Assembly (NCBI GenBank): GCA_015232645.1
Contig: JADFZF010000005.1
Location: 1-41,343, forward strand
DNA: 41,343 bases
DNA from: Magnetococcales bacterium
GTDB taxonomy: Bacteria; Pseudomonadota; Magnetococcia; Magnetococcales; UBA8363
Direction: 5' to 3'
Shown: piece by piece, positions 6,886 through 20,421 of the stretch
How positions within the stretch are numbered: position 1 is the first letter of the stretch
Layout: each line of letters opens with the position of its first letter
Made by a program: the position numbers and the translations under genes
Notes under the pieces: model-generated
Database searches by the model: none
What the model saw: only the letters and a program-made list of their open reading frames with translations
What the model was told of the DNA's origin: nothing

Positions 6886-7788
6886 TCACACGTTGGCACA
6901 CAGACGATTGCGCCCCTGTCTCTTGGCTTCATACAACAATGCATCGGCCGTCTGTTGCAACTGCTCCAGCGTGGTGGTCGCGGACGGCGTCATCGTAGCC
7001 ACTCCCAAGCTGATGGTCACATGCGTGGCGACCGTGGACAGGGAATGCGGTATGGCCAGCGCCGAAACCGCCTGACGCAACTGTTCTCCCACCTGCATGG
7101 CCCCGGTCGCATCGGTGTTGGACAAGACCGCGACGAATTCCTCTCCCCCATAGCGCGCCACCAGATCTCCAGGACGATGAACACACCCGGCCAATGCCCG
7201 CGCCACCCGTTGCAAACACCTGTCCCCACCCGAATGGCCGTAGTGATCGTTGAATTGCTTAAACTGATCGACATCCATCATGATCAGGGAAAGGGGTTCG
7301 CCAGTACGCAATCCCCGCGCCCATTCCCGTTCACGCACGACATCGAAGGAACGACGATTGGGAATCTCCGTCAAACCGTCCAGAGATACCATGCGCTCCA
7401 ACAAGGCCATCTTGCGCTGCAGACCCAGATGGGTCTGAATGCGGGCGTAGACGATGGTGGCATGAAACGGTTTGGAAATATAATCCACCGCCCCCAGGCG
7501 CAACCCCTTGACCTCCGCATCAACATCATGAAGCGCCGTCAAAAAAATCACCGGAATGGAACGAGTCATCGGGTCGTCCTTGAGGCGGCGTATCACCTCG
7601 AAACCATCCATCCCCGGCATCATGATATCCAACAGGATCAAATCGGGCAAACCATCGGCCCGTATGGCCCGCAATCCCTGCTCCCCAGTTTTGGCCACCA
7701 CGATGCGATAGTCCGACCGTAACAGACCGACCAAGGTCTCGATCACAAAGGTCTCATCATCGACAATCAAAATTTTGGGTTGTTCCAT
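6886..7788 (-). CDS. REC-GGDEF response regulator, diguanylate cyclase
   Basis: This 300-residue protein would convert two GTP to c-di-GMP under phosphorylation control. Residues 1-120 are a receiver domain with the acidic pair D10-D11, phospho-acceptor D54 in LILLDIMMPGMDG, T84 and K106. Residues 135-300 are a GGDEF domain opening with DGLTEIPNRRSF and carrying an intact GGEEF active site at 214-218. An allosteric RxxD I-site (RPGD, 205-208) is spaced five residues before it, so product inhibition is expected. The architecture resembles PleD/WspR-type regulators with one REC. Its ATG lies one base after the stop of the hybrid kinase gene, so the two are co-transcribed and the cyclase is a probable output of that kinase. 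Confidence 0.95.
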   Translation of the reverse strand: MEQPKILIVDDETFVIETLVGLLRSDYRIVVAKTGEQGLRAIRADGLPDLILLDIMMPGMDGFEVIRRLKDDPMTRSIPVIFLTALHDVDAEVKGLRLGAVDYISKPFHATIVYARIQTHLGLQRKMALLERMVSLDGLTEIPNRRSFDVVREREWARGLRTGEPLSLIMMDVDQFKQFNDHYGHSGGDRCLQRVARALAGCVHRPGDLVARYGGEEFVAVLSNTDATGAMQVGEQLRQAVSALAIPHSLSTVATHVTISLGVATMTPSATTTLEQLQQTADALLYEAKRQGRNRLCANV

Positions 7789-7789
7789 G

Positions 7790-10700
7790 TCACGGCTCTA
7801 TGGTGGCAAGGAGTGGCAAAATTCTCGAGAAGGTCTCCCGGGCATCGTCGAAATCAAAAGACGCGACCTGTCGCCGCAGCAAAGACAACAGTGGCTCGTG
7901 ATCCCCCACACCGTAATAGTGCAACAGTTCGTCCGTAGTGTCGAGGGCATCCGGGTTGTGTTGCCGCAACTGCCGCTCCAACGTTTCTGACAACGAAACA
8001 AGATGATCGCGATCCTTCGGCGCGACCTTGGGGACGGGGTGCGAGACATCGGATTCCCCTTGGCTCCATTCGGCCAAGGCGGCCATGAGTGCGGTCAAGG
8101 CCACCCCAAGCTCTTCCACCAGCGTCGTGGTTTGCCGGCGGTCAGCCCGTTCCAGGGCCGACTCCAGATTGATCGCCACCTGCTGCAACTCCTGGGCCCC
8201 CAAAGAACCGGCAATCCCTTTCAAGGTATGAGCCAGACGTCGCGCCGTGGCATCATCGCCCTCGCCCACAGCCTGTCGCAACCGTTCCGGATCACCGGCA
8301 TGCTGTTCCATAAAGTGATGCAGCAACCGTCGCAACAACTCCTGATTGCCTCCCACCCGCACCAAAGCGGTCTGCAGATCCATCCCCCGCACCCCTTTCA
8401 GAGCCGAGAAATCGTTGACGACTGATCGCGGCGGACAGATCCCCGGCGACGTCAATTGCAGGCATTCTCCCAGGGCGTCATATAAGAGTTGGGGGTCGAT
8501 GGGCTTGGCGACGTAACCGTTCATCCCCGATTCTTCGATCCGGGACCGATCCTCGGCATTGGCGGTCATGGCGATGATGGGAAGATCCCCACGAATCCGA
8601 TCATCGCGACGAATCCGCCAAGCGGCGCTGTATCCATCCAATACCGGCATCTGAACGTCCATCAATACGACGTCGAATTCCCTCTGGCACAGCCTTTCCA
8701 GAGCTTCCCGGCCATCATTGGCCACCACCACTTCCATCCCCGCCTGATGCAGCAACTCGCAGACGATCTGTTGGTTGATGCCATTGTCTTCCGCCAACAG
8801 CGCTCGCCGACCCGCCAAACCGGGAGGAGTCTCACCATCTGGAGTTTCTTTACGCCGCTGCTCCTGTTCCCACTCCCCACCCGCCAACCCGAACAGCTTC
8901 ATGATCCCCCGATACAACACCGGTGGCGTCAGGGGTTGCGGCACGACCTGATCCACCCCAGGCAACCGTTCGAGTTCCAAGACACCTGGGCCGACCCCAC
9001 CCAAAAGCATGATGCGCATGGGTACCGGGCCCCTGTCCCATTGACGCAGACGTTGCGCCAATTGGACGCCGCTCATGTCCGACAGGGTTTCGTCCACCAG
9101 GACCAATGACCATGGGGGGGCGGCCATGGTCACCGCCTCCAGCGCCGCCCGGGCATCCGCCACTCCGGTCGCCGACAGGCCCCACGCCGTCAGATAACGC
9201 ACCACCATGTCCCGTGTCTCCTCCCCCTCATTGACCACCAATACCCGCTCCCCTTGAAGTGGCGCCGGCAACGGTTCCGACTCTTGGCGCTGCGGATCAA
9301 TTTTTTGCGTCAATGTACAATGAAAGGTGCTGCCCACATTCAGCGCGCTCTCCACCCAGATGCGCCCTCCCATCATGGCCACCAACTCCCGGCAAATGGC
9401 CAATCCCAATCCCGTGCCGCCAAATTGGCGCGCAATGGAAGCGTCTACCTGGGAAAATGCCTGAAACAATACCCCTTGCTGCTCCGCCGTCATACCGATC
9501 CCCTCGTCCCGGACCGAAATCTTCACCTCCACCTGCTGATCCTGGCGGGAATGAAGCCGCAGCAAGGTCACCACCCGGCCCGAGGGGGTAAATTTGACCG
9601 CATTGTTGACCAGGTTGAGCAAAACCTGCCCCAGACGCAGCGGATCCCCCAATAGCTGCGGCGGCAGATCGGGATCACGACAAAATTCAAGCTTCAATCC
9701 TTTTTCCTGCCCTTTCACCTGGGTCATGGCGGCCACCTGCGTCAACACCTGATCCAACGAATAGGGCACCGTTTCCAGCGTCAGACGCCCCGCTTCCATC
9801 CGCGATATGTCCAACAGGTCGTTGATGATCTGCAACAACGTTTTCCCCGCCGCCTGTACCTTGGTCAGGTAGTCCTTCTGCCGTTGATCAAGTCTGGTCC
9901 GGAGGCACAGATCAGTCAAACCCAATACCGCTGTCATGGGGGTACGCAGTTCGTGACTGACGTTGGCGATAAAAGCGCTTTTGGCCTGGATCAGCAAACG
10001 GTTTTTTTCCAATTGCAACAGATGCGGCAGCAACAGGCTCGACGATAACAACACCATGGCCACGATGGGATAAACGGGATCCACCAGCAGGTGTTGGTGG
10101 ACAAAGAGCCAGAAAGCCCATTGTACCAGCACCAACGCCATGAATCCGTTGAACCCGAGCAACCACCACAGGTCCCCGCGCCGCATCAGCGCACGGACGA
10201 CGAACCATGCCACTATCAGCCACAACCCGACGACCAGGTTTTCCCACCAGGGGCGCAGGAGATAATTTTTTTGAAGCAGTTGCTCCACCACCTGCATGTG
10301 CACCTCAACCCCGGGAACAATCTCCCCCAGGGGGGTAGCGACGTGATCTCCCACCCCTTTGGCGGTCACGCCCAAAAAGACCAGATGATCCTTGATCAAC
10401 GAAGCCTCCGCGTCCTTATCCAGGATCTCCTGCGCCGACAGATAGCGATAAGGATTGAAATGACGGTAATGCAGCCAGATTTGACTGTCGGATCCAGTGG
10501 GATACAAGGTACCGCCCAGACTCACGCCGGTCAGGGCAGGAATGGCGCTATCCAGAAACGGGTCGGTGGCCAACTGGATCAGTTTCAACCCATTCATGAC
10601 CCGCAGGGTCTCCAGCCCCAAGGCCGGGTAAAGTCCGGAACGGATATGATACACCAGCGGGATATGTCGGATCATGCCATCGGGGTCGCTGCCTGCCATC

Positions 10701-11329
10701 GAGATGGCCCCCTGCCCCTGAGCCACCTTCTGAAACAGCGGCAACGAGACGATGCTGCCGGTATAACGGGTCAGGGTTCGGCGCACATCCCATTGGCCTC
10801 TCCCATCCCCATCGGCATTGGTCGCTATGAAACCCGCTTTTTCCGTCGGCAATGGGGTTGGTGCCTCGGCCACCAGGGGGGCGAATCCCAACACGGTCGC
10901 CGCTTTGCTCATGCTGTCCGCCAGGCGGCGATCCTGATCGGGCAAACCGTCGAGTAGCCGCCGCCAATCCTCATTGCCCGGCCACAACGCCGCCAGATTG
11001 CCGGGAGATATTCGATCCGGCTCCGGGAACAGCAGGTCCACAACGATCACCCGCGCCCCATCGGCACGCAACCGATCCAACATCTTGGCCAAGCGCGACC
11101 TAGGCCAGGGCCACTGGCCGTGGCGGCGTAGGCTCGCTTCATCGATGGCGGCCACTCTGAGCGGCAAGGTCCATGGATATTCCCTGGGGGCGTGCCGTTG
11201 CATGATGTCGAACGACAGTTGCTCCAACCCTCTCCGGGGCAGGGGCAATAGCGCCAGCAACAACACCAGCATCAGCCAACCCCACGTATATCCCCCCACC
11301 ATTTTGTCCCATCGAACCACCTGACCCAC
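7790..11329 (-). CDS. CHASE2 hybrid sensor histidine kinase (HK-REC-REC-Hpt)
   Basis: A 1179-residue membrane sensor. Residues about 15-32 are a first membrane helix, and 40-355 form an extracytoplasmic CHASE2 domain (DEASLRRHGQWPWPR; FLGVTAKGVGDHVATPLG). Helices at about 363-380, 387-412 and 418-438 follow. The HisKA domain has NVSHELRTP with H459, and the HATPase has N576, DEGIG and GGTGLGLAI. A first REC domain (695-815) keeps D746 but has NEGEE instead of the acidic pair and lacks the KP lysine, so it is probably degenerate. The second REC (842-955) is canonical, with D848, D891 and K942. An Hpt domain has H1034 in AHTLKGIAGS. The start is uncertain: 11329 is a GTG, while a GTG at 11320 has GGAG eight bases upstream. 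It likely feeds the adjacent REC-GGDEF protein. Confidence 0.94.
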   Translation of the reverse strand: MGQVVRWDKMVGGYTWGWLMLVLLLALLPLPRRGLEQLSFDIMQRHAPREYPWTLPLRVAAIDEASLRRHGQWPWPRSRLAKMLDRLRADGARVIVVDLLFPEPDRISPGNLAALWPGNEDWRRLLDGLPDQDRRLADSMSKAATVLGFAPLVAEAPTPLPTEKAGFIATNADGDGRGQWDVRRTLTRYTGSIVSLPLFQKVAQGQGAISMAGSDPDGMIRHIPLVYHIRSGLYPALGLETLRVMNGLKLIQLATDPFLDSAIPALTGVSLGGTLYPTGSDSQIWLHYRHFNPYRYLSAQEILDKDAEASLIKDHLVFLGVTAKGVGDHVATPLGEIVPGVEVHMQVVEQLLQKNYLLRPWWENLVVGLWLIVAWFVVRALMRRGDLWWLLGFNGFMALVLVQWAFWLFVHQHLLVDPVYPIVAMVLLSSSLLLPHLLQLEKNRLLIQAKSAFIANVSHELRTPMTAVLGLTDLCLRTRLDQRQKDYLTKVQAAGKTLLQIINDLLDISRMEAGRLTLETVPYSLDQVLTQVAAMTQVKGQEKGLKLEFCRDPDLPPQLLGDPLRLGQVLLNLVNNAVKFTPSGRVVTLLRLHSRQDQQVEVKISVRDEGIGMTAEQQGVLFQAFSQVDASIARQFGGTGLGLAICRELVAMMGGRIWVESALNVGSTFHCTLTQKIDPQRQESEPLPAPLQGERVLVVNEGEETRDMVVRYLTAWGLSATGVADARAALEAVTMAAPPWSLVLVDETLSDMSGVQLAQRLRQWDRGPVPMRIMLLGGVGPGVLELERLPGVDQVVPQPLTPPVLYRGIMKLFGLAGGEWEQEQRRKETPDGETPPGLAGRRALLAEDNGINQQIVCELLHQAGMEVVVANDGREALERLCQREFDVVLMDVQMPVLDGYSAAWRIRRDDRIRGDLPIIAMTANAEDRSRIEESGMNGYVAKPIDPQLLYDALGECLQLTSPGICPPRSVVNDFSALKGVRGMDLQTALVRVGGNQELLRRLLHHFMEQHAGDPERLRQAVGEGDDATARRLAHTLKGIAGSLGAQELQQVAINLESALERADRRQTTTLVEELGVALTALMAALAEWSQGESDVSHPVPKVAPKDRDHLVSLSETLERQLRQHNPDALDTTDELLHYYGVGDHEPLLSLLRRQVASFDFDDARETFSRILPLLATIEP

Positions 11330-14997: not shown

Positions 14998-16380
14998 TTA
15001 TTTTCCCACCGAAGCGTTCTGGGTGACGAAAGTATGATATGGAAGATCCAGCAGATGATCGAAGGTAATGATGACCGCCACCATGAAAGTAATCAGGCTG
15101 GCGGCAAAATAACCATAACCGTAAAATGAGAATCCGAGGTATAGGCAGAACCAGGTCATCAGGCTGTTGGTTAGCAAAAACACCAGACCCACTTGCAAGG
15201 CTTTTTTCCGACAATCAAAGTAGGATAACATAATATTCATGAACAGAACGGCCACATGGTAGAAAGCCCCCAGGGCTCCCAGGCGATACATGGCCAGTTG
15301 CTTGAAATTGATATCCAACCAAGCAAACAGTTGCGGCGCCAACAGGATGGCCAATAGAGTGATACTGCCCTGAAGGATGATGAAATTGCGACCGCTCACA
15401 TGAATGGCGTTGATGAGTTCCCGATGAATGGCCTGAATGGCCTGAAAATGGGAATGTTTCTGGATCTCACGATAAAACTTCAAATAATATTCAAAAAATC
15501 GTGTTTCCATGCTCAGAACGAAGGAGGCCATGGAGGGGACGATGGTCAAATAGGCGAGGAACATGGCACTGTCGTAATTGGAGTAGGAGATGAAACCTCC
15601 CGCGACTTCTTCCCGTTCGGGAGCGAACCACATGATCCACTTATCGACCCAGGTGGCGAGGTTGAAGGTGAACCCCAGGAGTGCCAGATCCCAATAGCGG
15701 CGAAAATAACCGAGGAAACGAAAAAAATTCACCGCCTCATAGGGATACTCGGCAAAGATGCGGGCGATGATGCCGAACAGGATGATGACCAGGCCGGAAT
15801 TGAACCCGGTATACATCCCCACCACCCCCATATCCTTGGAGAGAAACGGGTTGAAAACGGCACCCATGGTCATACCCAGCAAAAAAATGCGCATGATGGT
15901 TCGGTAATCCTTCAGGGCGGTGATGAAGACAGTGGCAACCCAGATGCCATTGATCAAAAAATAATTGGTGAAAGCGCTGATGGCGGACGACAATTCCATA
16001 TCGAGATAGAAAAAATAAAAATAGATGGCCAGAGGCAATTGCGTGGCATACACCAGCATCAGTCCCCCGATCAGGGCGCCCGGGGCGTTTTCAACCTGTT
16101 TGATAAAGACGAGATCGGCGAGATATCGGGTCAATACCAGAACGACGGGACCGGAAAAGACCAGAGAAAAAGAGAAATTATAGATGACGGTGATGCGAAA
16201 GGCCATCTGCTGGTCGAAAGTGGTGAACATGGACCCCAGGGCCAGTATGCTGGTGAGGGAAATGATGGTGAACAGCCAGGGCCCCGTGGCGATGAGAGCA
16301 GAATAGGCAAACCCACCCAGAAGACCGAAAAGATTATCCTTGGTGGTCAAATGGCGCAGAACGAAACCGATGCCGGCCAT
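14998..16380 (-). CDS. pelG: Pel exopolysaccharide export protein PelG
   Basis: PelG is the inner-membrane, flippase-like component of Pel polysaccharide export, belonging to the MOP/Wzx-type superfamily. This 460-residue protein begins with the typical MAGIGFVLRHLTTKDN and has about a dozen hydrophobic helices along its whole length, with family-like segments such as FAYSALIATGPWLFTI, NLATWVDKWIMWF and SYSNYDSAMFLAYLT. Length matches PelG (about 450). The ATG follows the pelF stop by three bases, so it is coupled to pelF. It acts with PelF to polymerise and move a GalNAc/GlcNAc-type cationic polymer across the inner membrane. No periplasmic or outer-membrane Pel genes (pelA, pelB, pelC) lie in the window. 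Confidence 0.93.
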   Translation of the reverse strand: MAGIGFVLRHLTTKDNLFGLLGGFAYSALIATGPWLFTIISLTSILALGSMFTTFDQQMAFRITVIYNFSFSLVFSGPVVLVLTRYLADLVFIKQVENAPGALIGGLMLVYATQLPLAIYFYFFYLDMELSSAISAFTNYFLINGIWVATVFITALKDYRTIMRIFLLGMTMGAVFNPFLSKDMGVVGMYTGFNSGLVIILFGIIARIFAEYPYEAVNFFRFLGYFRRYWDLALLGFTFNLATWVDKWIMWFAPEREEVAGGFISYSNYDSAMFLAYLTIVPSMASFVLSMETRFFEYYLKFYREIQKHSHFQAIQAIHRELINAIHVSGRNFIILQGSITLLAILLAPQLFAWLDINFKQLAMYRLGALGAFYHVAVLFMNIMLSYFDCRKKALQVGLVFLLTNSLMTWFCLYLGFSFYGYGYFAASLITFMVAVIITFDHLLDLPYHTFVTQNASVGK

Positions 16381-16383
16381 GGT

Positions 16384-17964
16384 TCAATTCGAGACCCCGG
16401 GAGCAATGGAGGAACGTTGGCACAGATCGGTGTATAGATTCCGATAGGTTTGGGTCAAGATGTCTTGATCGTAATAGATCCGGACGCGCTGGCGCATGGC
16501 CTGTGAGCATTGTTGCCACCAGGAGGGCTGGGTCAGCAGGCGAAACAGTTGGTCGGCGGTTTCGGCGGGATTGGCGACCCTGGTCACCGCCCCCCCTGGA
16601 CCCAGCGGTGGATTTTCGTCGGGCATCCCCTCGATCATTTCTCGGCAGGCCCCCACGTCCGTGGCCACGGTCGGCACCCCGGCGGCGCCCGCCTCCAGGA
16701 TCACCAAAGGCTGTCCTTCACTGATGCTGGTCAACACGTTGACGTCGATCCGACCCAGATAATTCCGAAGATCCACCCGACCGGTGAAGGTGACCATGTC
16801 GCCCAGACGCAAATGTCGGATCATCCCCTGACATTCGGCGAAGTAGGTCGCATCTTCATCGGCCGGCCCCATGATCAAGGCCCGGGCATGGGGGAGAGAC
16901 TGCCGCAGCATGGCACAGGCCTGGATGAAACTCTTGATGTCCTTGATTGGAACCACCCGACCGATCAAGGCGACCGTCGGCGGCCGGGTCCCCTTGTCGG
17001 AATCAAGGGTCTCATAATGACGCCAGTCGATGCCGTTGGGGATCACCCGCATCCGGCCGGGATCGGCCCCATCCGCCTTTTGAAAATTTTGATTGCCGCC
17101 ATAGATCGTGATGATTTGATCGCACGCCTGATAGCAGGCCTTGGAATAGGACTGAAACGCATCGATCCATAATTTGCGACAGTCGTTGCTACCGGGCTGC
17201 AATTGGAAGCCGCTGCGACGGTCTTCATACAGCCAGTCGGCCATGGTGATTTCGATGCGACGTTCGTTGGTGTAGATGCCGTGTTCGCACACAATGACCG
17301 GACGTTGGGACTCCAGATGGGCCCGCGCCAGAAGCAGACCGGCGTAGCCGGTGGAAACGGCATGATAGGTCCTGGCTTGAGGCAACTCACAGGCCAACAA
17401 GGTCAACAGGTTGCCCGCAAGATAACGCCAGGTCCAAAAAAAATCCAAAAACGGCCCCTTGGGCAGCAATCGGTCGTACAAACGCAGCAACAGCTCCCAG
17501 GCCGGCCTGGAATTGAGCAGCTCCCCCAAGTCCAATGATCCTCGATAGGGCGACAGGGTTTGCAGCAGACTCCGTAACGTTTCCAGCCCCCCTCCGACCT
17601 GAAATTGATATAAATCCAATTCCAGGGCGTCGAAGAGGGTAAGTGGCAACCGCCTCCCCCCCCTGTCTCCCCGGGGAGGGGCCAAAAACAGATGGGTGAT
17701 CCCGGCGATATTGCCCGGCAGCTCATAGCGGGGCTGCAATTTTTGTCCGGGCGGCAGGAGCGCCAGAAGGTGGAAGCTCAGCTCGGGCAACCCCCGAATC
17801 AGGGCATGGACCCAACCCGATACCCCTCCGGCAACGTACGGATAGGTTCCTTCGACGATCAGGCATACATCGGCGGCAGCCGCTGGCGACCGCTTCCGTG
17901 CCACCCGACGGCCTGACCATGACCAAGCGGTGAGAGGAAACGGGCTGCGGGGACCTTGGCTCAT
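16384..17964 (-). CDS. pelF: Pel polysaccharide glycosyltransferase PelF
   Basis: PelF is the cytosolic GT4 glycosyltransferase that polymerises Pel from UDP-sugars. The 526-residue protein has the PelF/DUF3492 N-terminus (CLIVEGTYPYVAGGVSGWVH from about residue 34) and CEHGIYTNERRIEI (226-239), both typical of PelF. The C-terminal donor half has VIPNGID, LIGRVVPIKDI, and the catalytic E-x7-E pair E416/E424 within SISEGQPLVILEAGAAG. Its ATG overlaps the stop of the preceding membrane/cNMP gene by the ATGA sequence at 17961-17964, and its own stop is three bases before pelG. This is the gene order expected of an E-F-G block. A basic N-terminal extension of about 30 residues precedes the domain. 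The assignment is secure. Confidence 0.95.
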   Translation of the reverse strand: MSQGPRSPFPLTAWSWSGRRVARKRSPAAAADVCLIVEGTYPYVAGGVSGWVHALIRGLPELSFHLLALLPPGQKLQPRYELPGNIAGITHLFLAPPRGDRGGRRLPLTLFDALELDLYQFQVGGGLETLRSLLQTLSPYRGSLDLGELLNSRPAWELLLRLYDRLLPKGPFLDFFWTWRYLAGNLLTLLACELPQARTYHAVSTGYAGLLLARAHLESQRPVIVCEHGIYTNERRIEITMADWLYEDRRSGFQLQPGSNDCRKLWIDAFQSYSKACYQACDQIITIYGGNQNFQKADGADPGRMRVIPNGIDWRHYETLDSDKGTRPPTVALIGRVVPIKDIKSFIQACAMLRQSLPHARALIMGPADEDATYFAECQGMIRHLRLGDMVTFTGRVDLRNYLGRIDVNVLTSISEGQPLVILEAGAAGVPTVATDVGACREMIEGMPDENPPLGPGGAVTRVANPAETADQLFRLLTQPSWWQQCSQAMRQRVRIYYDQDILTQTYRNLYTDLCQRSSIAPGVSN

Positions 17965-19556
17965 GTCAGGCCCAAAAATTGTTGTATCTGCCCGCGAATC
18001 TCCCGGAAACGTTCCGTCAAACGTTGCGGATCGTCGTCAAGCAACCGACCGTTGACAAGGGCTTCGCGTTGTATCTGCCGTGAGGCGATCTCCCGGGCGA
18101 TGGCATTGAGAAAATCGCTCCGCTCACGGATGAGGGGAAGGATGGCGGTGGGAGGAATTTCCATGACGCGGCTGGTTTCGGTCAGCACCACCACATCCGC
18201 CTGGCGGGGGGCGCCGGTCAACAGCGACATCTCTCCGAAATAGTGCCCTTCCCCAAGATGCCCCACCTCCACGTTCCTGCCATCCGGATTGGTCAGCAAA
18301 ATCGCAACGACGCCCGATAAGATGACATACAGGATGTCACCGCCGTCACCCTGGCGGACAATCGTGGTTCCCCTCCTGAATTCGATGATGGAAGCGGACT
18401 GGGCCAACGAGGTTCGTTGCTCCAGGGTCAGAAAGGAAAACAGATGCACCCGGTGCAGACCATCGCCGTTGTACCATCCCGACCACAAATCCACCGCATC
18501 GCGTAGCGAAAGCATCCAGCTCTCGTCGCCAACAAACGTGTGTCGATGCTTCTCGGCCAACCGGTTGAGTTCGTCATGGCGTTTCAGCTTGTACAACGTT
18601 TCCATGGTCCAGGTAATGATGGAATGGTCATTATTGCCTTGAGCGATGAGATTGGAAAAAAATTCAGCCGCTTCCGCCAGTGCCCCAGAACGGACCAGGG
18701 TACGTCCCAAGGCCGTTGCGGTCTGGAAATCGTTGGGACGCTCCTCCAGGCAACGGCGATACCAGGCGATGGCCTGTCGGCGATTTTCGGCCTCGCGCAG
18801 GGGATCCAGAAGGCCAGTAAAGGCAAAATCGTCATAATGACGCCCCAAGCGCTGCATCTCATTCCATTGCAAATGCTTGGCCGTCGCCAGGTGTTCCAAC
18901 TCCATGGTGGTCCGCATGAATCGGCTTTCCAGATGTGATATGGCACTGGCCGCCTGCACGCGGACCGAATTGTCGGGATGGTTGACGGCTTCGCGCAACA
19001 CCGGGGCAAAGGTGGGTTGGAAATGACGTGACATTTTGGCAATCATGGTCTGCTGCTGACTTTGCGAGCCGTAGGCCAGAATGTCCATGAACGGTGTCAA
19101 TACCGTCCGAGCGGTGTCTCCCTGAACATCCAAACGTTCCATCAATTCCATGGCGGCACTTGATTGGTGTTCAGGAAACAGGCTGGCATACCACTGGTCA
19201 AAAGGGGGCGCCGATTTGGCAAACTCCAAATACAACCCCAGAGCCAGTAAAACCCCAAGCACTCCGATGATACTCATGGTGGCTGCGGCCAGGGGGAGAA
19301 GGAAATAAAATCCATTCAGACAAGGGCCGGGGGTTCGTTTTTGTCGATACCAGGCCACACCCAGTAATAGCGCGACCAAGAGGGCATGGGTGGCCGCCAG
19401 CAGGAGAGAACTCTCCATGGGGGAGAAAGATCGCCCCCAGGCAACGAAAGGAAGTTCCCGGGAGATTCCCCATTGAAAAAACAGTTCGACCGTCAATAGT
19501 GACAGACACAAGGCCAGAAACCCCAATGTGCATGAAAGATCACGTGCGGTTCCCAT
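17961..19556 (-). CDS. Membrane HEAT/TPR protein with C-terminal cyclic-nucleotide-binding domain, PelE position
   Basis: This 531-residue protein heads the Pel block and is coupled to pelF by ATGA. It has three N-terminal membrane helices at about 9-29, 48-70 and 82-111. A helical region follows with a HEAT-like segment (about 187-211) and TPR-like repeats (about 259-345). Residues about 366-495 form a cNMP-binding domain whose phosphate-binding cassette reads FGEMSLLTGAPRQADV, keeping the conserved Glu and Arg. Membrane helices plus TPRs before pelF match the PelE position and plan, but the cNMP domain is not part of known PelE proteins as I know them. The PelE relationship is inferred. The start at ATG 19556 is preferred over a GTG at 19571, because AAGAAA precedes the ATG. 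Confidence 0.8.
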   Translation of the reverse strand: MGTARDLSCTLGFLALCLSLLTVELFFQWGISRELPFVAWGRSFSPMESSLLLAATHALLVALLLGVAWYRQKRTPGPCLNGFYFLLPLAAATMSIIGVLGVLLALGLYLEFAKSAPPFDQWYASLFPEHQSSAAMELMERLDVQGDTARTVLTPFMDILAYGSQSQQQTMIAKMSRHFQPTFAPVLREAVNHPDNSVRVQAASAISHLESRFMRTTMELEHLATAKHLQWNEMQRLGRHYDDFAFTGLLDPLREAENRRQAIAWYRRCLEERPNDFQTATALGRTLVRSGALAEAAEFFSNLIAQGNNDHSIITWTMETLYKLKRHDELNRLAEKHRHTFVGDESWMLSLRDAVDLWSGWYNGDGLHRVHLFSFLTLEQRTSLAQSASIIEFRRGTTIVRQGDGGDILYVILSGVVAILLTNPDGRNVEVGHLGEGHYFGEMSLLTGAPRQADVVVLTETSRVMEIPPTAILPLIRERSDFLNAIAREIASRQIQREALVNGRLLDDDPQRLTERFREIRGQIQQFLGLT

Positions 19557-19571
19557 GTTTCTTACAACCAC

Positions 19572-20157
19572 TGCGGTGTCTGAAACGTGACTTGACGCAT
19601 GTCACTTTGTTGGCTGTCTGATTTTCCAGGCATCGACGGCGGCCACAGAAGCATCAATCGTCGGTCATCCGGCCTCGAAACCAACTCCGATACCGAAACC
19701 TGAGACTATGGCCTAGCCCTATCCCGGTCCGCTTCCATGCCAAACTCGCCCCCTTCGCCACCCGACGCCCGAACTGCCAACCCCAACCTTTAAAGCCGTC
19801 GCTGGTGACGGAAGGAAAAAATCTCCTCCCCGGAGGGACCTGCAAAAGCGAAAAAAAACGCCGGATTCTCGGCCCCGGTCGCATTTTTCAGAACAACTCC
19901 CCCCTTCCCCTGGATGAATGGGTAAAGAAAAACGATCAGAGGAAAGGACCCGTGACGTTGTCACTGCGAAACACTCTATCCATGTATTGGCTGACAATCC
20001 AGGGAAAAGTATTTCCTTGGTCGAAAGGGGAAACAAGCCCCCCCACCCAGAATCGGCAGAGCTTCGATCCTTGGAAAATGTCGATCAAGGTAATACACTG
20101 TCGGCAGTCACCAAGCTTGCCTTGGGAAAACCAAAAATTCTTCATAGGGAGCGATCA
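19572..20157. other. Intergenic region between divergent genes
   Basis: About 590 bases between the Pel block (minus) and the small Cys-rich protein (plus). It should contain the Pel promoter. The plus frame of the small protein stays open upstream to 19918 but lacks a plausible protein pattern there. No repeat, RNA gene or strong promoter was recognised. Confidence 0.5.
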
Positions 20158-20421
20158 ATGTTTAAAAAATTAATATTGTTTTTTGCCGCCACTTTTTTTG
20201 CGAGTATGGCTTTCGCCGGCGACATCAAATGCGGCGCCGATGCAGCCAACCCCGATGCCGAATGTGGCCCCGATATGGTTTGCATCCTCGTGGCCAATCC
20301 ACCTGTCTGTAAACCGCCTCTGCCCACCGGTCAACCCTGCAAACGCGATAAGGTGTGCGCCTCAAAAACATGTGAAAGGCCTGCTGGCGCCAAGCCGGAC
20401 GACAAAGGGGTCTGCAAATAA
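20158..20421 (+). CDS. Small secreted cysteine-rich protein
   Basis: An 87-residue protein with a clear Sec signal peptide (MFKKLILFFAATFFASMAFAG, cleavage after AFA). The mature part of about 66 residues contains eight cysteines, with patterns such as ECGPDMVC, LPTGQPCKRDKVC and SKTCERP. The spacing recalls Dickkopf-type or other disulfide-knot Cys-rich domains sometimes annotated in bacterial exported proteins, but I cannot assign a family. Even cysteine number suggests four disulfides formed in the periplasm or outside. The start at 20158 was chosen over the longer frame from 19918 because of the signal peptide and an AGGGAG ribosome-binding site seven bases upstream. It is monocistronic and followed by a stable hairpin. 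Function unknown. Confidence 0.8.
   Translation: MFKKLILFFAATFFASMAFAGDIKCGADAANPDAECGPDMVCILVANPPVCKPPLPTGQPCKRDKVCASKTCERPAGAKPDDKGVCK

Follow-up and report, generated by a model that had tools for sequence, protein, structure and literature searches.

The 41-kb stretch analysed here (the window), which is contig C382 of the Magnetococcales genome G000 (assembly 74% complete), carries a block of Pel polysaccharide genes in which the protein encoded in front of pelF ends in a cyclic-nucleotide-binding (CNB) domain and no pelD could be seen. Pel is a partly de-N-acetylated alpha-1,4 GalNAc polymer. Its synthesis is the standard case of post-translational control by cyclic di-GMP (c-di-GMP) via PelD, and the question raised by this locus is whether the CNB domain stands in for PelD, as the initial annotation proposed, or was added to a synthase that still has PelD. 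Sequence comparison indicates that the domain is an addition to PelE and not a stand-in for PelD. We therefore favour, with a probability of roughly 0.58, a Pel synthase with a second ligand input, probably cyclic AMP (cAMP) or cyclic GMP (cGMP), beside c-di-GMP. The features of the locus are listed below.

17961-19571, minus strand: pelE-CNB, a PelE-like membrane/HEAT-TPR protein with a C-terminal CNB domain (reading frame, Pfam, PelE alignment and model)
19212-19550, minus strand: three long helices predicted near the N terminus of PelE-CNB, at residues 8-37, 51-79 and 86-120 (AlphaFold2, predicted local distance difference test score (pLDDT) mostly 83-96)
18480-19202, minus strand: helical HEAT/TPR solenoid of PelE, residues 124-364 (model, sub-threshold Pfam TPR/HEAT matches and alignment with PelE of other genera)
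18123-18386, minus strand: cyclic nucleotide monophosphate (cNMP)-binding domain, PF00027 (Pfam match)
18198-18239, minus strand: phosphate-binding cassette FGEMSLLTGAPRQA, with Glu447 and Arg456 in the numbering of the 536-residue form (homologue alignment)
16384-17964, minus strand: pelF, a glycosyltransferase of family 4 (GT4) (NCBIfam NF038011, Pfam DUF3492 and GT4)
14998-16380, minus strand: pelG, the Pel exporter (Pfam PF16933)

By sequence, the three frames are identified as the Pel inner-membrane genes pelE-pelF-pelG. PelF scored 441 bits against the NCBIfam equivalog NF038011 (cut-off 100) and matched DUF3492 (E = 1.1e-78) as well as GT4, and PelG matched PF16933 with 410.6 bits (E = 1.1e-122, cut-off 29). 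The reading frames confirmed that pelE-CNB and pelF overlap by ATGA and that pelG follows three bases after pelF, as had been described. PelE-CNB has 536 residues when read from a GTG, or 531 with the ATG at 19556 as start. In the scan of the window proteins no PelE model of Pfam or NCBIfam matched it, and it was assigned by comparison with PelE proteins of its own and of other genera. It is 27-39% identical to nine short PelE proteins (eight belong to other genera, the ninth to another pel locus within this genus), each encoded directly or closely before pelF, and is distinguished from them by ~170 extra C-terminal residues that hold the CNB domain. The three predicted N-terminal helices are taken to be membrane helices, and the solenoid was modelled with a pLDDT of 49-63 up to residue 160 and mostly 79-97 beyond. 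Alignment and model together identify the protein before PelF as a PelE with N-terminal helices and a TPR-type solenoid. The main paper on PelE is reportedly that of Whitfield et al. (2020, J Bacteriol).

The CNB domain matched PF00027 with 78 bits (E = 5.6e-22, cut-off 27.5) over residues 391-478 of the 531-residue form, and in a PF00027 scan of four genomes the window copy was the second-highest single match (81.9 bits). The phosphate-binding cassette had been described as kept, and indeed its Glu and Arg, which we take to contact the ribose and the phosphate of the ligand, respectively, were invariant in all six PelE-CNB homologues (GE...R). Among these six, 9 of the 14 cassette positions were invariant, compared with 46 of 135 across the whole CNB domain (p = 0.015), at CNB identities of 50-62% between the deeper pairs. 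For the close pair G001/G005, the non-synonymous and synonymous divergences (dN and dS) were 0.045 and 0.232 in the CNB domain, 0.014 and 0.136 in the solenoid, and 0.056 and 0.39 in the C-terminal tail, which indicates that the CNB domain is under purifying selection, with a constraint somewhat looser than that on the solenoid. Among solved structures, the best relatives are protein kinases that depend on cGMP or cAMP, together with the regulatory subunits of these kinases. For a PelE with such a conserved domain it is reasonable to suppose a regulatory role, as initially suggested.

The absence of pelD from the block was borne out, as tblastn of the window with two PelD proteins (E 1e-3) gave no match, yet pelD is present on another contig of G000. 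A profile of ten local PelDs identified it at C196:1966-3297 (E = 2e-201), its 5' end being cut by the contig end. That the genome has no PelD had been considered, since the Pfam model PelD_GGDEF (PF16963) was silent in G000. This was rejected: ten proteins of the order, identified as PelD by their position and GAF domain, all go unmatched by PF16963, and its control was likewise silent, so that its silence in G000 is uninformative. The local profile detected pelD in five of the six genomes with a PelE-CNB fusion, G000 included, each with the RxxD motif; it found none in G001 or G003 and gave a short weak match in G004.

The gene order in the congeners bears directly on the missing pelD. A pelC-like gene, pelD, pelE-CNB and pelF are contiguous in G002, G006 and G007, with pelD directly upstream of pelE-CNB, and pelG comes next after pelF in G002 and G006. 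Related pelF neighbourhoods, where cNMP-domain proteins were to be looked for in place of pelD, thus contain both genes side by side in three congeners. In G005 the genes are spread over three contigs (pelC-like gene and pelD; pelE-CNB and pelF; pelG), and upstream of pelE the contig does not end but continues with a frame that by eye looks SecG-like. In G000 the pelD contig C196 (3322 bases) ends right at the 5' end of pelD, no pelE was found after pelD on it (best tblastn E 0.64), and the 3' side of pelD holds just one unclassified frame and an oppositely oriented gene for a histidine kinase. From these arrangements the pel operon is split in G005 and, on present evidence, in G000. The window locus would then be one half of a split pel operon, with pelD on a separate contig without pelE after it, and separate pelD and pelE-CNB loci in G000 and G005 are the likely explanation for the 'missing' pelD.

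According to the available sections of PMC2170427, c-di-GMP is bound in P. aeruginosa PelD by R367, D370 and R402, and the Arg and Asp of RxxD are needed for binding. The RNTD of G000 PelD sits at the described place of this RxxD. A first alignment of 13 PelDs from the order showed the motif kept in every one. In an alignment of 57 rows, six of them without residues at RxxD, it was kept in 36 of the remaining 51, five of these 36 rows being repeat copies of a gene that was already included. The model of G000 PelD had a mean pLDDT of 84.8, and its best Foldseek match was the diguanylate cyclase 4zmu (E = 7.5e-9), followed by the P. aeruginosa PelD crystals 4etx (E = 2.2e-8) and 4dn0, the c-di-GMP complex (E = 1.9e-7); the template-modelling scores (TM-scores) of these PelD matches were low, at 0.22-0.27 when normalised by query length and 0.34-0.38 by target length, with whole-chain root-mean-square deviations of 17-18. 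A pelD elsewhere in the genome with an intact c-di-GMP site, which the initial annotation had said would speak against its proposal, was therefore largely found, with RxxD kept and the third residue unplaced. The 15 rows in which RxxD was not kept (L089-L092, L094, L105, L113, L119, L121, L123, L130, L136 and L139-L141) come from Minwuia/Kordiimonadales, Lambdaproteobacteria, Parachlamydiaceae, Francisellaceae, Spirochaetales and other groups, hinting at Pel systems independent of c-di-GMP.

The same full-length fusion was found in six of the eight genomes of the genus (G000, G001, G002, G005, G006 and G007). The arrangement in the window is therefore not due to chance, and the association of a cNMP-binding domain with Pel is not peculiar to this genome. 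Across the order, 17 PelE proteins were found in 14 of 48 genomes: six fusions, all in one genus, and 11 others, in which no CNB domain was seen and which have open frames of 359-452 residues, except for a stop-to-stop frame of 497 in G023, where the PelE gene itself has 371. When 398 genomes sampled from the phylum were searched, the PelE profile matched 18 proteins in 15 genomes, and only the same six matched over the CNB part, the other 12 ending at profile positions 361-371; this survey scored three candidates per genome and can miss cases. Named pelG loci, 61 in all and drawn from many phyla, were examined as well. A PelE-like gene lay no more than 7 kb away in 44 of them, and a single one of the 44, L086 of the congener G002, had a CNB domain when scored with a profile grown from the six PelE CNBs, not with PF00027. 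The PelE-CNB genes of G005 and G007 are on other contigs and thus outside the 44. The fusion recurs in the genus and in no other genus among those examined. Plain and fused PelE coexist in G007: contig C205 encodes the plain form and contig C202 the PelE-CNB, each accompanied by a separate PelD.

When 52 CNB domains were placed in a tree, the six PelE CNBs (the window copy being row L156) formed one clade (97/96), and a single origin is therefore likely. The next group to join them (85/88) consists mostly of tandem-CNB proteins; L159, the only member that was scanned, contains an FHA domain. The tree is rooted at its midpoint, has open forks and drew a warning about long branches, and its bootstrap had not settled, so that it points to no firm donor of the domain. 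MscS-CNB channels came first among the non-Pel matches in the whole-protein search, but an origin from them was rejected as unproven, the tree grouping the PelE CNBs with the tandem-CNB proteins instead.

Two signalling genes in the window are relevant to the supply of messengers:

6886-7788, minus strand: response-regulator GGEEF diguanylate cyclase, PleD-like, with RxxD (window protein scan)
7790-11329, minus strand: CHASE2 hybrid histidine kinase, adjoining the GGEEF cyclase (window protein scan)

The GGEEF cyclase, ~7 kb from pelEFG, is a possible source of c-di-GMP for Pel. Nucleotide cyclase domains (PF00211) were found in all eight genomes of the genus, with two matches in G000, one of them weak (1.2e-4). 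Both types of messenger are likely to be made in the cell, and we infer that they could reach PelE-CNB.

Several observations weigh against a second ligand input at PelE beside c-di-GMP. G001 (75% complete) has pelE-CNB and pelF without a detected pelD or pelG, and the PelE search gave no match in G003 or G004. A pelC-like gene, named by position and with only sub-threshold LpoB-type Pfam matches, is present in four of the eight genomes of the genus and was not found in G000, which is incomplete and whose pelD contig stops at the 5' end of pelD. The equivalent of R402 could not be placed with certainty in PelD, a nearby Lys being invariant in ten order PelDs. In PelE-CNB the C-terminal tail is barely conserved (3 of 36 positions invariant), the beta-roll of the CNB domain was poorly modelled by AlphaFold2 (pLDDT block means of 29-57 over residues 401-470) and the structure matches of the model had low TM-scores, so that the pocket could not be checked in three dimensions. 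PF00027 matched 18 times in G000 and 30-39 times in three congeners, and in a genus so rich in CNB domains this one may be a generic module that has spread. Many CNB folds have no ligand, or a ligand of another kind.

The CNB domain could indeed be ligand-free or structural, docking PelE to another protein or stabilising the complex without any nucleotide signal. The faster divergence of CNB and tail compared with the solenoid would agree with this, and where CNB domains are so common the acquisition could be incidental; the invariant ligand-contact Glu and Arg in all six proteins and the very canonical window domain, as judged by its PF00027 score, argue against it, and we consider it unlikely, although it deserves to be kept in view. 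The proposal that PelE-CNB replaces PelD and places Pel under cNMP control instead of c-di-GMP draws on the lack of pelD in the window, on pelE-CNB-pelF pairs without an adjoining pelD in G000, G001 and G005, and above all on G001, where the lack of a detected pelD is the main point that keeps it alive. That assembly is, however, incomplete and also without a detectable pelG, whereas pelD with RxxD accompanies the fusion in the other five genomes, G000 among them, adjoins pelE-CNB in G002, G006 and G007, and a PleD-like GGEEF cyclase is encoded in the window itself. The words 'instead of c-di-GMP' could therefore not be upheld, and replacement is the least probable of the readings considered.

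Another reading is that the CNB domain binds c-di-GMP or another dinucleotide and gives the synthase a second c-di-GMP site. CRP-family CNB proteins that bind c-di-GMP exist, such as Clp and Bcam1349. The ligand in question is also the standard Pel signal, as far as described in the available part of PMC2170427. The cassette, in contrast, fits the classical cAMP/cGMP cassette, and the nearest solved structures are those of the kinases named above, which makes a dinucleotide ligand improbable.

Given the domain logic and the conservation, the most economical mechanism would be that PelDEFG receives a second allosteric input. By analogy with P. aeruginosa, PelD, PelE-CNB, PelF and PelG would form one synthase complex whose primary switch would stay c-di-GMP on PelD. 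With cAMP or cGMP bound, the CNB domain at the end of the solenoid would shift relative to PelF/PelD, and this shift would raise or lower polymerisation as a second post-translational input. In its most explicit form the proposal is that two messengers acting on a single complex directly gate Pel polymerisation in the genus, c-di-GMP via PelD and cAMP or cGMP via the CNB domain of PelE, and that the pelEFG/pelD split lets the cNMP-responsive half be made alone; for this we would stop somewhat short of even odds. If a second input is confirmed, a CNB domain on PelE beside an RxxD-bearing PelD would put two allosteric inputs on a biofilm polysaccharide synthase and would offer a handle on the role of PelE in the complex. 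The locus further shows that operon splitting, and not replacement, can lie behind a pel block that lacks pelD.

Further genes around pel loci were observed. A guessed PelA (L026:12140-14488) has no Pfam match and has relatives in all eight genomes of the genus, including two without pelE, and for these reasons settles nothing. The pelG genes of L024 (G005, C48) and L020 (G007, C130) are 75-76% identical to the window pelG and lie beside TPR genes, away from pelE-pelF; in L020 the contig stops a short way upstream of pelG. In the Nitrospirae bins L132, L133, L134 and L135, PelG carries a ~700-residue C-terminal extension (frames of 1188-1327 residues, e.g. L133:10001-13582), and that of L133, the one scanned, matched no Pfam family. 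Separate CNB proteins are encoded downstream of pelG in L123 (8742-9980, a CNB-histidine kinase ~0.4 kb after it) and L087 (12569-13390, 273 residues, 1.2 kb after it). Just upstream of the pelE start in the window, an inverted repeat GTGAC-N9-GTCAC was spotted by eye at 19587-19605, and a small divergent Cys-rich open reading frame (19918-20421, plus strand) with a sub-threshold Dickkopf_N match lies upstream of pelE.

Compared with P. aeruginosa pelABCDEFG and its PelDEFG complex, as described in the available parts of PMC12345266 and PMC2170427, the system has orthologues of PelF and PelG, a PelE with helices and a TPR-type solenoid, and in the same genome a PelD with a transmembrane-GAF-GGDEF-like fold and RxxD. 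It differs in the C-terminal CNB domain of PelE and in the unlinking of pelD from pelEFG in G000, and pelA, pelB and pelC have no certain location here (pelB was not searched for in G000). Gram-positive pelDEA(DA)FG variants, including a Streptococcus PelD without GGDEF (PMC7112168, PMC12345266, in the parts available), show that lineages differ in the regulatory end of their Pel synthases; there PelD is altered, with GGDEF lost and a short-chain dehydrogenase/reductase-type domain gained, whereas here PelD is kept and PelE gains a domain. The Seep-SRB pel operons have pelA, E, F and G without a recognised PelD, whose task an unassigned membrane protein was suggested to perform; the accessible text of PMC10553843 mentions no CNB domain for them. 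The operon survey PMC7112194 counts PelE among the divergent parts and, in its accessible text, mentions no CNB domain. Within the genus, the MscS-CNB (L039, L036, L041) and Ion_trans-CNB (L171) proteins are likewise membrane proteins with a C-terminal CNB domain, but they are channels and not a polysaccharide synthase, and their CNB domains fall outside the PelE group in the tree. A description of a CNB domain on PelE or with Pel was not found in the titles and abstract beginnings searched, most subscription papers being outside the search. Published Pel systems already vary at the regulatory end, and a CNB domain on PelE would, judging from the sequences compared, add a further form of such variation.

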